A stretch of DNA of 64,000 bases from Ancylobacter koreensis (lineage in GTDB: Bacteria; Pseudomonadota; Alphaproteobacteria; Rhizobiales; Xanthobacteraceae). Below, piece by piece: positions 1-9,147 of this stretch. Numbering within the stretch: the stretch's first letter is position 1; each line of letters opens with the position of its first letter. A program made the translations under genes and the position numbers. Location: contig NZ_JALKCG010000001.1 of assembly GCF_023016525.1 (NCBI RefSeq), positions 496,001 to 560,000 of the forward strand, read 5' to 3'. Below the pieces are notes generated by a model that saw only the letters and a program-made list of their open reading frames with translations, made no database searches and had not been told where the DNA came from.

Positions 1-2
1 AG

Positions 3-1046
3 GCCGAACAGCGCCGCGCCGCCGAGATGCGCCTGTCGGTTCTCGCAGAACGCTTCATGTCTGAGCACGTTGCTCTCAAGCGCAAGGGAACCACAGAGGC
101 GTTTTATCGGATCGTGCTCGACAGGCACATTCTCCCAGCCCTCGGCGACAAGGATGCGCGGCACATTACCCGCCAGGACGTGGCGAGGATGCACGCACGC
201 CTCGCCGATAAAGCAACCATGGCGAACCGCGCCGTTGCGGTCCTTGGCGCGATCTATGGATGGGCGGAGCGGCTGGAAATTCTGCCGGAGGGCACGAGGA
301 ACCCGACTACGAAAATCGAGAAATTCCGAGAGCAGGGCCGCGAGCGATACCTCACCGTCGAGGAGCTTGCCCGGCTGGGCGAGGCGATTCGTATTGCTGA
401 GACTGTCGGTATCGAATGGGCGCCACGCGAGGGGGCAAATGCCAAGCATGCGCCAAAGGCCGAGCACCGCCGCGTCGTCATCGCGCCTGAGACTGCCGCC
501 GCTCTGCGGCTGCTCATATTCACCGGCGCTCGCCTTCGGGAAATCCTTCACCTTGAGTGGAGCGCCGTCGACGTGGAGCGCGGTCTACTCCGCCTTAGAG
601 ACAGCAAAACCGGTCCGAAGGTTATCGTTTTGAATGCACCGGCTCGCGCAGTGCTCGTCGGTTTGCCGAGAGTTGGGCGCTACGTGATCCCCGGCGATAT
701 CAGCACCGGACCGGATGGCAGAACTATCGAGAAGCCGCGCGCAGACCTCAAGCGGCCTTGGGCGCTGGTATGCAAGGCGGCGGGCCTCTCCGGGCTTCGT
801 ATCCATGACTTGAGGCATTCCTTCGCCTCGGTCGGAGCTGGCGAAGGTCATGGTCTCGCGATCGTCGGCAAACTATTGGGCCACGCGCAAGCTAGGACAA
901 CCCAGAGATATGCCCACCTTGACAATGATCCGCTTCGAAAGGCGAGTGATGCAATCGCGTCTCGGATCGCGGCGGCGATGGGCGAAGCGCAGCGGGAGAG
1001 CACGGCGGAGGTTATCGAGATCGCAAAAGGGCGCATCGGCCGATGA
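3..1046 (+). CDS. Tyrosine recombinase / phage-type integrase (5' end missing)
   Basis: The reading frame is open to the window edge. The first ATG (27) is preceded in frame by AEQRRAAE, so the N-terminal arm-binding domain (roughly 80-100 residues in this family) lies outside the window. The visible part has a SAM-like core-binding domain followed by the catalytic domain. The catalytic set is visible: Arg in GARLREILHLEW, the HDLRHSF box (H-x-x-R), the GHAQ histidine, and the nucleophile Tyr in TTQRYAHL. The enzyme would carry out site-specific integration and excision of the island. It is followed by three tandem terminator hairpins. It looks intact over the visible length. Confidence 0.9.
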   Translation, partial: AEQRRAAEMRLSVLAERFMSEHVALKRKGTTEAFYRIVLDRHILPALGDKDARHITRQDVARMHARLADKATMANRAVAVLGAIYGWAERLEILPEGTRNPTTKIEKFREQGRERYLTVEELARLGEAIRIAETVGIEWAPREGANAKHAPKAEHRRVVIAPETAAALRLLIFTGARLREILHLEWSAVDVERGLLRLRDSKTGPKVIVLNAPARAVLVGLPRVGRYVIPGDISTGPDGRTIEKPRADLKRPWALVCKAAGLSGLRIHDLRHSFASVGAGEGHGLAIVGKLLGHAQARTTQRYAHLDNDPLRKASDAIASRIAAAMGEAQRESTAEVIEIAKGRIGR

Positions 1047-1251
1047 TGCGCGTCCAACGCTGTGCCACGTCATTTTGTCACTTTGGCGTGAAGAGAGCCC
1101 GAAATTCGTCTGTCATTTCAATGCCGCTCCCGCTTCGTTTGAACTTTCTCGATTGACGGGGGGCACAAATTCATGCGTTTCTTCGCATGAGGTGGCTGCA
1201 AATGCGCTCAGTTGCGCGGAGCGACCTCTTCTCACCTCCCGTGTGATATCG

Positions 1252-1275
1252 AACCCGGTCCATTGGCCGGGTTTT
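1252..1275 (+). terminator. Intrinsic terminator 1 of 3 after integrase
   Basis: AACCCGG (1252-1258) pairs with CCGGGTT (1267-1273), with an additional inner CC/GG pair and a short loop. A T-rich tail follows. Confidence 0.65.
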
Positions 1276-8400: not shown

Positions 8401-8821
8401 CATCGCCGACCCTCTCGCCGTCCCGCCACAGCGCGAAACTGTTGCCGTCGGTGTAGAGAAGGTTGGGAAGCGATTTAAGCCGCTCCCATTGGGCCTTGTC
8501 GTGCTTGTCCTTGAACAGCCGAGGATTGGCGCCCTTGCCCGGTGCCTTGACCTCGACAAACCCCACCAGCGCGTTGTTGATCGAGACGGCATAGTCCGGC
8601 CGCGTGCGGTCTTCAGCGAGAGTGGTTTCGCCAACCAGCTCAACGCTATCCTTCGCGTGGCCGACAAGGAGCGCCAGCTCGCCGATGAAAATTTCGAGAG
8701 GCCCGCGCAGCTGATCCTCGGGAGCGCCGGTGATGGCGACATTCGAGAGCTTCGCAGCGGTGCGTTTGCCAAACGCCGAGACGACGTCATCAAAAATTGC
8801 TGCCACGACGCCCGCCCTCAA
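5462..8821 (-). CDS. Single-chain restriction-modification enzyme (N6-adenine methyltransferase with PD-(D/E)xK nuclease)
   Basis: The protein is about 1,119 residues. The N-terminus carries a PD-(D/E)xK nuclease signature: RPDYAV (Asp76) and FVEVKAPG (Glu90, Lys92). A helical connector leads to the gamma-class adenine methyltransferase with YTPPEVV (335-341), motif I DPAVGTGTF (372-380) and catalytic motif IV NPPY (496-499). The C-terminal third resembles the type ISP target-recognition region. There is no helicase domain, unlike true ISP enzymes of about 1,600 residues, so a type IIG-like mode is likely. The enzyme would methylate host DNA and cut unmodified DNA. The called start is TTG 8821; GTG 8806, with GAGG nine bases upstream, looks better. 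Bases about 6300-6560 in the recognition region are clearly AT-richer. Confidence 0.85.
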   Translation of the reverse strand: MRAGVVAAIFDDVVSAFGKRTAAKLSNVAITGAPEDQLRGPLEIFIGELALLVGHAKDSVELVGETTLAEDRTRPDYAVSINNALVGFVEVKAPGKGANPRLFKDKHDKAQWERLKSLPNLLYTDGNSFALWRDGERVGDVVRLIGDVESSGAALTSPPALLALVEDFLSWQPISPKNPKRLAEVSARLCRLLREEVTEQLAKGNAGLTDLANDWRKLLFPDASDESFADGYAQAVTFGLLIARARNIPLDKGIDQAANLLRQSNSLIGTALRLLTDDTANMKALETSLGTMTRVFDAVDWTKLTKGDADAWLYFYEHFLEVYDNTLRKRTGSYYTPPEVVTSMVRLVDEALRGPLFGRPDGLAAQDVTIADPAVGTGTFLLGVLRKIARSVGDDLGPGSVPGALESAASRMIGFELQFGPFAVAQLRLLAEYRELMDDAGAAGALPALRLFITDTLGNPFVEDEYIPAIMQPVAQSRRAANQIKKNEKITVVIGNPPYKEKAEGRGGWIEHGSNGRPAPLERWRPPAAWRVGAHAKHLKNLYVYFWRWASLKVFGAGWHAATGLADGDEEGIVCFITVAGFLNGPGFEKMRADLRASCSEIWIIDCSPEGHQPEVATRIFQGVQQPVCIVLAARRKGKDVAKPGRVRFRALPEGRREEKFKALTTLNLYDSEWANGPDEWRGPFLPEASGAWAEFPSLNRFFNFSGPGVMPGRTWVIAPDRSSLEARWRRLIEEVDLNKKEQLFHPQLRDGNVASRHIRKIVKEGIGAIQPNLEPIISVKSLDVNLVKFGFRSFDPQWIIADARLINDPRQKLWASNSQEQIYLTNLEAHSPTNGPAVTFSAHVPDQHHYKGSFGGRVFPLWADAVATQPNINPHVLANLADLYGHAVSPPDLMAYIAAVLAHPAFTARFAKDLKQPGLRVPVTADAGLFAKAVEIGREVISLHTYGDRFHDAAAGRPRQAPRLDKAHAPTIPVGGAIPGAPEPLPETMDYDPATRRLTVGKGHVDNVMPEVWNYEVSGKKVVWQWFSSRRRNRTKPVIGDRRPPSPLDSIQPDHWLGEYTTDLMNLLHVLGRLVLLEPRQAALLEEIMGQPLLGIADLGLAPDNGGDSSKEGDDGAT

Positions 8822-9071
8822 TCAGAGATTCGCTGACTTCATCAAGGGGTACCGGGAGGCGTGGCACTCCACAACCGGTGTGGCGAACGGGACATGCGTG
8901 TCATCTGACAGAAGTGTCGCGCGAACGATGAGATCGCCAGCAGGCGGAGCGCCAGCAGCGAAATGGCGTTCCGTGCTTCCGATGTGCTTCCGAATGGGAG
9001 AATGATGACACGTCGAGTTAGCGTCCGACCGCTTCCTCACGTCTATCTATTTGATTTTATTAGGAGAGAAT
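8822..9071. other. Gap between restriction-modification gene and tRNA-Ala; island right boundary
   Basis: No gene is seen here. The left part must hold the promoter of the leftward restriction-modification operon. GTGCTTCCGA occurs twice in close succession near 8975-8990. The last 30 bases before the tRNA are AT-rich, in contrast with the core DNA on the other side. The integrated right end of the island should lie at or just inside the tRNA 3' end. Confidence 0.5.
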
Positions 9072-9147
9072 TGGTGGAGCCAGGCGGAATCGAACCGCCG
9101 ACCTCTTGAATGCCATTCAAGCGCTCTCCCAACTGAGCTATGGCCCC
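9072..9147 (-). tRNA. tRNA-Ala (anticodon GGC)
   Basis: A complete cloverleaf is read on the minus strand. The acceptor GGGGCCA pairs with TGGCTCC (one G-U), the D-arm is ATAGCTCAGTTGGGAGAGCGC, and the anticodon stem CTTGA/TCAAG encloses ATGGCAT with anticodon GGC. The T-arm carries GTTCGATTCC, and CCA is encoded. The 3' end points to the island, the usual orientation for integration into a tRNA gene. Confidence 0.95.

Follow-up and report, generated by a model that had tools for sequence, protein, structure and literature searches.

The closest described counterparts of the locus reported here are the phage-inducible chromosomal islands (PICIs) of Gram-negative bacteria. In the portions of PMC6092414 used here, these islands have an integrase at the left end, an AlpA-type regulator and a rightward core operon, and they carry a packaging gene together with accessory genes, no structural genes having been found in them. 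Enterobacteriaceae and Pasteurellaceae are named there as common hosts, and the same portions make no mention of alphaproteobacteria or rhizobia. Here we analyzed a 64,000-nucleotide stretch of the genome of Ancylobacter koreensis, a member of the Hyphomicrobiales (contig C11, NZ_JALKCG010000001.1, 496001-560000; hereafter the window), whose start falls within an integrated element having this same arrangement. The element is probably a complete, small, integrative phage satellite, PICI-like and of the cos type, that would pair its own small terminase (TerS) with the large terminase (TerL) of a helper phage. As judged from its sequence, the island is most likely carried in particles that other phages produce. 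Related genomes and loci are cited below by our G and L numbers.

Boundaries and gene content of the element

An initial annotation had proposed a PICI-like satellite at window positions 1-9147, ending at a tRNA-Ala gene, and had suggested looking further left for a direct repeat of the 3' end of that gene. Searching the host genome recovered such a repeat, an exact 56-bp copy (E 2.4e-22) that starts 573 bp left of the window, with the right copy at contig 505062-505117. The repeat comprises the final 46 bases of tRNA-Ala(GGC) and 10 flanking bases. The right end proposed at the tRNA gene was thereby confirmed, and the left end lies outside the window. The element spans contig 495428 to 505117, and because the tRNA-Ala repeat bounds both ends, this 9.7-kb element is complete. 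Chance is not a plausible source of the 56-bp repeat, or of a gene order that recurs in other genomes.

Comparison with related genomes provided the unoccupied site that the initial annotation had suggested seeking. G928, the congener with the tRNA region most similar to that of the host (88%), has an intact tRNA-Ala with nothing inserted, and five genes of the left flank are colinear there (62-90% protein identity), the last lying approximately 75 bp from tRNA-Ala. Gram-negative PICIs are expected to occupy attachment sites that prophages do not use. Congener G103 carries a different int/alpA island of about 16 kb (L091 3314-19330) at the same tRNA-Ala, and therefore this tRNA has been used more than once.

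The order of integrase, AlpA-like regulator, Nu1-like TerS and rightward operon noted initially was borne out by family matches (Table 1). The start of the integrase gene, at contig 495667, lies 334 bp to the left of the window, and its product is 46% identical to the integrase of an element at tRNA-Pro in G089. The AlpA-like protein also matched PHROG 66 (excisionase and transcriptional regulator; 2.1e-7), and the PHROG 57 match of TerS covers residues 23-158 of a longer frame, 2810-3328. Transcription in Gram-negative PICIs is unidirectional and rightward. Here all core genes are encoded on the plus strand and tightly packed, with overlaps or gaps of a few bases except for some 130 bases before terS; the restriction-modification (R-M) cargo and an 80-amino-acid (aa) open reading frame (ORF) lie on the minus strand. 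Family scans of the ten element proteins (the integrase without its N-terminus) gave no match to a large terminase, portal or capsid, and local profiles for TerL, portal and capsid made from relatives likewise found nothing in the element. The absence of these genes, first remarked for the visible part, thus holds over the complete element, and no structural gene set lies within the repeats. The element has an integrase with a specific chromosomal attachment site, an AlpA/MerR-type regulator (HTH_17; PHROG 66) with a putative activator role, and a terS gene with a candidate cos site in the absence of structural genes, all of them hallmarks of Gram-negative PICIs.

The 297-aa protein with a C-terminal winged helix-turn-helix (wHTH) occupies the replication/regulation position. 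Its matches are at the level of the wHTH only, and the protein encoded at the same place in G130 also ends in an HTH_20/MarR_2-like wHTH, below the Pfam cut-off. It could be a divergent replication initiator. An imperfect 32-base inverted repeat (window 2485-2516 / 2687-2718) flanks the 71-aa ORF that follows, and a 28-base direct repeat, 79% alike, is common to this ORF and the gene of the 297-aa protein. No iteron array or iteron-type origin was seen in the element, and scans for promoters and terminators gave results near or below shuffled expectation.

Table 1. Features of the element within the window (window positions; aa, amino acids)
Feature	Position	Strand	Evidence
Integrase, 3' part; tyrosine recombinase, 459 aa	1..1046	+	Pfam Phage_integrase 1.8e-17; PHROG 1 6.2e-46
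AlpA-like helix-turn-helix protein, 70 aa; putative activator/excisionase	1398..1610	+	Pfam HTH_17 28.4 bits (cut-off 27)
297-aa protein, C-terminal winged helix	1614..2507	+	Pfam MarR_2 9e-9, residues 241-283
71-aa ORF	2504..2719	+	No family match (Pfam, PHROGs, NCBIfam)
Candidate cos-like cis-element, conserved	2742..2851	+	GGGTCC 2742-2747; TTTCAATTTCC box 2822-2832; directly upstream of terS
Small terminase TerS, Nu1-type	2852..3328	+	PHROG 57 terminase small subunit, E 1.2e-7
111-aa ORF	3318..3653	+	Coding score; Pfam and PHROGs scanned
Predicted stand-alone M41 (FtsH-type) zinc peptidase-like protein	3646..4305	+	HEAAH, conserved CDxC, fold match
Coiled-coil protein (CC), 228 aa	4302..4988	+	Alignment with relatives; predicted helix
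80-aa ORF, overlaps end of R-M gene	5233..5475	-	Coding score; no Pfam match
Fused type IIG/ISP-like R-M enzyme, 1119 aa	5462..8821	-	PADLOC, Pfam, motifs
Right attachment repeat, 56 bp	9062..9117		Identical to contig 495428-495483
tRNA-Ala(GGC), site of integration, still intact	9072..9147	-	ARAGORN

TerS homologues and the cos-like element

A TerS profile matched 40 of 397 genomes of the order at E ≤ 1e-5. Seventeen places reached E ≤ 1e-29, and 16 of these were examined, G301:C241 being left out. TerS adjoins TerL at four (G176, G350, G269 and G301:C35), and no TerL was found in the examined DNA at the remaining 12, two of which (G419 and G883) are cut by contig ends. TerS homologues adjoin TerL in six phage loci in all, and every TerL tested with Pfam (5/5; G176, G350, G269, G100 and G022) has both GpA domains; the TerL of G100 came from an earlier family search, and G022 is a weaker TerS match. 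Weak TerS matches in G141 and G098 were set aside as unrelated or spurious.

The succession of TerS, M41-like peptidase and coiled-coil protein (CC) recurs in five other genome loci and in viral contig L180, with no TerL in the DNA examined at any of them. A search for the same gene order elsewhere in the Rhizobiales had been suggested initially, and two of the copies found lie at other tRNA genes. The nearest look-alike, G856b, is bounded by 46-bp repeats at tRNA-Gly, measures 8.9 kb and contains int, alpA, TerS, M41 and CC; its cargo is different (L126 5509-8383), comprising a 280-aa protein without Pfam match, a weak-GAF protein and a small weak-HTH protein. A second element of the same genome, G856a, has the same module at tRNA-Ser with a 15-bp repeat and a length of about 8.9 kb. 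G130, which belongs to the same family as the host, has int, alpA, TerS and CC between 48-bp repeats at tRNA-Glu (11.0 kb); its cargo (L021 5943-8782) of an HTH/ASCH protein, an acetyltransferase-domain protein and an AAA-domain protein may be a defence or toxin-antitoxin-like set. In a TerS tree of 26 rows, G000, G252, G419, G883, L180, G130 and both G856 elements fall in one clade without a TerL-bearing locus, at a support of 86/98 that is below the 95/80 mark. The satellites as a whole do not form one clade (4 changes). Close relatives of TerS or the 297-aa protein were not found in the phage collection searched, nor those of the M41-like protein in the phage or plasmid collections searched, and peptide-pattern scans returned nothing for M41 in viral contigs or for TerS in genome contigs.

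Inspection of the DNA upstream of terS revealed GGGWCC followed 79-82 bp later by TTTCCRTTTCC in 7 of 8 loci of this class. Allowing up to one mismatch, the box is no more than 45 bp from the terS start in G000, G130, G252, G419, G856a, G856b and G883, and not in G823; none of 20,000 mononucleotide shuffles placed it in more than 1 of 8. GGGWCC is found at -125 to -85 in the same seven loci, compared to at most 3 of 8 in 5,000 shuffles. GGGWCC without the box occurs in G067, G176 and G022.

A pattern scan of viral and genome contigs served as an independent check. Ten viral contigs matched, and nine of them have TerS or TerL downstream, seven of the nine with TerL; in the tenth, L186, a terminase gene is lacking. 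Eight contigs have their terminase genes starting no more than approximately 0.5 kb from the pattern, and in L183 TerL begins 1.4 kb away. In L178 the gap between the cos-like site and TerL holds a PHROG 57 TerS (9.8e-26). All four TerL proteins tested from pattern-bearing viral contigs are of the GpA type in Pfam. Five of the 48 genome-contig matches have TerS; four of these had been used to build the pattern, and the fifth, from Thioclava pacifica (L132/L177), is new. In the lambda record (NC_001416), CGTTTCC occurs at 53 and 155 and, reversed, at 114, with nu1 at 191; we take these cores to be TerS-binding sites. In the G378 elements, the DNA upstream of terS also contains the first 11 bases of that record, a likeness that is weak alone in G+C-rich DNA. 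The part of PMC6092414 used here states that cosB contains three TerS sites. We read the GGGWCC-TTTCCRTTTCC element as cos-like.

The PICI-like satellite proposed initially for this Hyphomicrobiales host is supported by the attachment repeat, the empty site in G928, the lack of a structural set and the recurring gene order, and further by the conserved cos-like element upstream of terS. A plausible course of events would begin with the intracellular replication of a phage whose terminase is of the lambda/GpA type, upon which AlpA would switch on the rightward operon, the role of activator being ascribed to AlpA by analogy with EcCICFT073 (PMC6092414, consulted in part). The element would then excise, its own TerS would bind the cos-like element and steer the helper's large terminase to satellite DNA, and that DNA would be packed into helper-made particles. 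With less assurance, we suggest that the M41-like protein and CC may reshape or redirect helper heads.

The M41-like protein, its coiled-coil partner and sister loci

M41 was not detected in the proposed solo M41 peptidase by Pfam, PHROGs or NCBIfam. The protein nonetheless has HExxH and CDxC motifs in common with its relatives in alignments, and profiles of those relatives also match open frames of FtsH size. A fold search with its predicted structure (219 aa, mean pLDDT confidence 75.7) gave 10 matches at E ≤ 0.001, all of them FtsH or FtsHi chains (best 2.8e-5; structure 2ce7 is presumably FtsH). This fold match is partial, as TM-scores to the query were 0.43-0.49. With HExxH and the FtsH peptidase fold, and without an AAA+ ATPase domain, the product is predicted to be a stand-alone M41-type zinc peptidase-like protein, as first proposed. 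The model of CC contains one 96-residue helix (residues 53-148, block-mean pLDDT 83-97), and residues 169-228 are below 50.

An M41 profile matched 28 of 397 genomes of the order at E ≤ 1e-4, mostly in FtsH-sized frames. Seven places were strong (E ≤ 6.5e-35; G252, G000, G419, G276, two in G856, and G823), the next match being at 1.7e-9. TerS lies directly upstream at six of the seven and CC directly downstream at all seven, and TerL was found at none within the DNA stretches examined. An M41-like match in G714 was set aside as unrelated or spurious, as were G534 and G844. In G276 and viral contig L180, the M41-CC pair directly precedes a capsid gene, and in G067 a head-maturation protease lies between TerS and CC. 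These neighbors favor a role in assembly, in which the two proteins would act as a pair on the particle in the manner of a prohead protease and scaffold, a weaker proposition than the packaging scheme.

Assignment of a role to M41-CC is the weakest part of the mechanism, and proteolytic interference or derepression fits too. It is quite possible, if somewhat less than an even prospect, that the element is the same satellite, with M41 and CC serving as interference or control factors that degrade a helper protein or repressor. Zinc peptidases of mobile elements can cleave repressors (ImmA type), and G130 has the coiled coil without the peptidase, as this alternative would allow; the capsid genes directly after M41-CC in G276 and L180, and the head protease in G067, speak for assembly instead.

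Sister loci extend the gene repertoire associated with this TerS. Tape-measure proteins are encoded in several loci with TerS and without TerL (L028, L096, L097, L098, L099, L101, L177 and L180). The G089 element (57-bp repeats at tRNA-Pro, 21.9 kb) encodes a tape-measure protein and has a tail-protein gene (PHROG 166), and G378b and G378c (55- and 53-bp repeats at tRNA-Val, 14.4 and 14.9 kb) each encode a tape-measure protein. Others are found in G378d, G823, G067, L177, L180 and G866, the last together with an S49 head-maturation protease, and G252 has a tape-measure gene divided among three frames. A small protein encoded in each of G378b-d matches S49 head proteases in their C-terminal part, and L177 and L180 also encode a major head protein. 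The limits of the elements, and hence the absence of TerL from them as wholes, are less sure outside G089, G378b and G378c, because only these three are bounded by repeats.

We advance tentatively, as a rather speculative extension, that an alphaproteobacterial satellite lineage encodes only the measuring and choosing parts of the virion and takes the bulk (such as TerL, portal and tail tube) from its helper. Its own TerS and cos-like site would choose the DNA; a protease/scaffold-like pair would set the head, being M41-CC here and an S49 protease or C-terminal scaffold-like piece elsewhere; and the tail-assembly-type and tape-measure proteins of the sister elements would set tail length. Within this lineage the window element would represent the minimal version, limited to TerS, cos and the head module. 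If true, the hijacking shown by TerL-less loci with tape-measure genes would reach beyond heads to the length of the tail. A limited literature search found no description of tape-measure and head-protease/scaffold-like genes in loci of this kind, and no satellite-encoded tape-measure protein is described in the parts used here of PMC4936722, PMC10690885, PMC11364771, PMC10884400 and PMC11389934; satellite AH14b does carry a tail-assembly-protein gene, according to the part of PMC4936722 consulted.

Alternatives, cargo and relation to known satellites

Several observations weigh against a cos-type satellite with an assembly module. The eight loci of the box count were chosen after the boxes had been seen. 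Over the 21 TerS loci viewed, seven have the box near terS, four (G378) have a one-mismatch version further upstream, and 10 differ from it by at least two mismatches (the six phage loci, G067, G089, G866 and G823). No TerS accompanied 43 of the 48 genome-contig pattern matches, which we take as chance, and every stretch of lambda 1-190 differs from the full box by at least three mismatches, only the CGTTTCC core being common. The cos assignment thus depends on position, conservation and resemblance. Likewise, the capsid role of M41-CC depends on gene neighborhood, and the CC fold search gave no match at E ≤ 0.001. In G856a the integrase occupies the opposite end and the opposite strand. A 340-aa gene beside the left repeat (contig C11:494269-495291; L005 8269-9291) is absent from G928, whose flank is therefore not identical to that of the host; in five other congeners the 20 kb examined contained the tRNA and none of the left-flank genes, so that a single empty site supports insertion. 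Pfam, PHROG and NCBIfam scans of the element detected no recognizable primase or replicase of the PICI pri-rep kind; no primase-type replication gene having been found, strict membership among the PICIs, which are also characterized by interference and by helper-dependent induction, replication and transfer, stays tentative.

The host genome also has no match to GpA_ATPase (GpA-type TerL) or Phage_portal_2 (lambda-type portal). A resident cognate helper was rejected on this ground, and a cognate helper would come from outside. A satellite may reside in a strain none of whose prophages mobilizes it, according to the part of PMC11389934 used here. The host genome contains two HK97-capsid loci, L190 and L189. 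L190 (C11:1226801-1246800) has a compact portal, major head protein, TerS and TerL at approximately 6681-16600 with no tail gene by eye; its TerS and TerL belong to other PHROGs than those of the element, and it is possibly a capsid-forming satellite or a prophage remnant. The gene order of L189 (C15:118001-138000), also judged by eye, resembles a gene transfer agent.

It is unlikely that the element is a decayed prophage, left over from a complete lambda-type phage whose structural genes were lost. TerS homologues are indeed present in full phages of the order, and decay does occur in the family, since the G252 tape-measure gene spans three frames. However, the genes in the window are open and closely spaced, other genomes have the same reduced gene set, also at different tRNA genes, and neither the M41 nor the CC profile had a match in the six TerL-bearing phage loci (stretches of 14-40 kb, not whole phages). 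We find it similarly improbable that the locus is a defence island or integrative element moving by excision and ordinary uptake or transduction, with the TerS-like protein as a DNA-binding regulator and the boxes as its operator. The HTH-bearing N-terminus of the protein, the missing helper in the host genome and the many plasmid relatives of the restriction cargo would suit such an element, but the TerS family match spans most of the protein length, and the same upstream pattern precedes terminase genes in seven viral contigs also carrying TerL. A complete prophage was rejected, no large terminase and structural module being present inside the attachment repeats.

The cargo had been described as an opposing restriction-modification locus. 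Opposing it is, yet rather than a multi-gene locus it comprises a single fused enzyme and the 80-aa ORF. The enzyme matched the PADLOC REase_MTase_IIG model (1339 bits) and Pfam Type_ISP_C (2.5e-69) plus N6_Mtase, and its layout is a nuclease-like motif, an N6-adenine methylase (NPPY) and an ISP C-terminal specificity domain. It contains NPPY, DPAVGTG and D...EVK, which we take to be its catalytic motifs. The single chain with nuclease and N6-adenine methylase is that of a type IIG enzyme, and the type IIG/ISP enzymes LlaBIII and LlaGI likewise combine nuclease-like, methylase and specificity parts in one chain. The methylase part aligns with LlaBIII, LlaGI and the adenine-specific methyltransferase chain 7lo5; the LlaBIII chain has 1578 aa compared to 1119 aa here, and the aligned region, residues 315-694, takes in the methylase part and a portion of the sequence after it. 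A plasmid homologue is 58% identical and annotated as type ISP, and relatives are found on many plasmids. The enzyme would, to judge from these matches, restrict unmodified incoming DNA to the benefit of the host cell.

For a satellite lineage of the Hyphomicrobiales, the case provides the genes, the boundaries and a candidate packaging signal, and it makes the identity of the helper testable among phages whose terminases are of the GpA type. The conserved pair of M41 peptidase and coiled coil may be a new means of redirecting helper assembly. The window copy has a restriction enzyme as cargo beside the tRNA-side attachment site, and such an enzyme carried by an island could protect its host.

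Among known satellites, Gram-negative PICIs are the closest in layout, although a pri-rep gene with an adjacent iteron origin is expected in them and the window element has no recognizable pri-rep. EcCICFT073 encodes no TerS homologue, whereas the window element has its own Nu1-type TerS and a cos-like site, and the M41-CC module is not mentioned for Gram-negative PICIs in the portions of PMC6092414 used here. Capsid-forming PICIs (cf-PICIs), in the part of PMC10690885 consulted, are likewise satellites with TerS, and the relatives G276, L180 and L177 have capsid genes; cf-PICIs, however, carry TerL, portal and capsid genes, none of which is present in the window element, and TerL was not found in the capsid-bearing relatives either. 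The phage-inducible chromosomal minimalist islands (PICMIs) are similarly small satellites of reduced gene content, yet those described in the portion of PMC10803314 used here are from Vibrionaceae and stated to be without capsid-remodelling genes, whereas the window element has TerS and the conserved M41-CC pair. The helper-satellite pair AH14a/AH14b of Pseudomonas offers a small inducible element that uses the capsid of another prophage and has a tail-assembly-protein gene; the host of AH14b is Pseudomonas, and no TerS-M41-CC module is described for it in the part of PMC4936722 at hand. Unlike lambda, the window element lacks a large terminase, and only in the G378 elements does the left-end 11-mer of lambda occur upstream of terS; as in the cos/Nu1/A region of lambda, the TerS gene of the element lies directly downstream of CGTTTCC-type boxes, and related phages have a GpA-type TerL.

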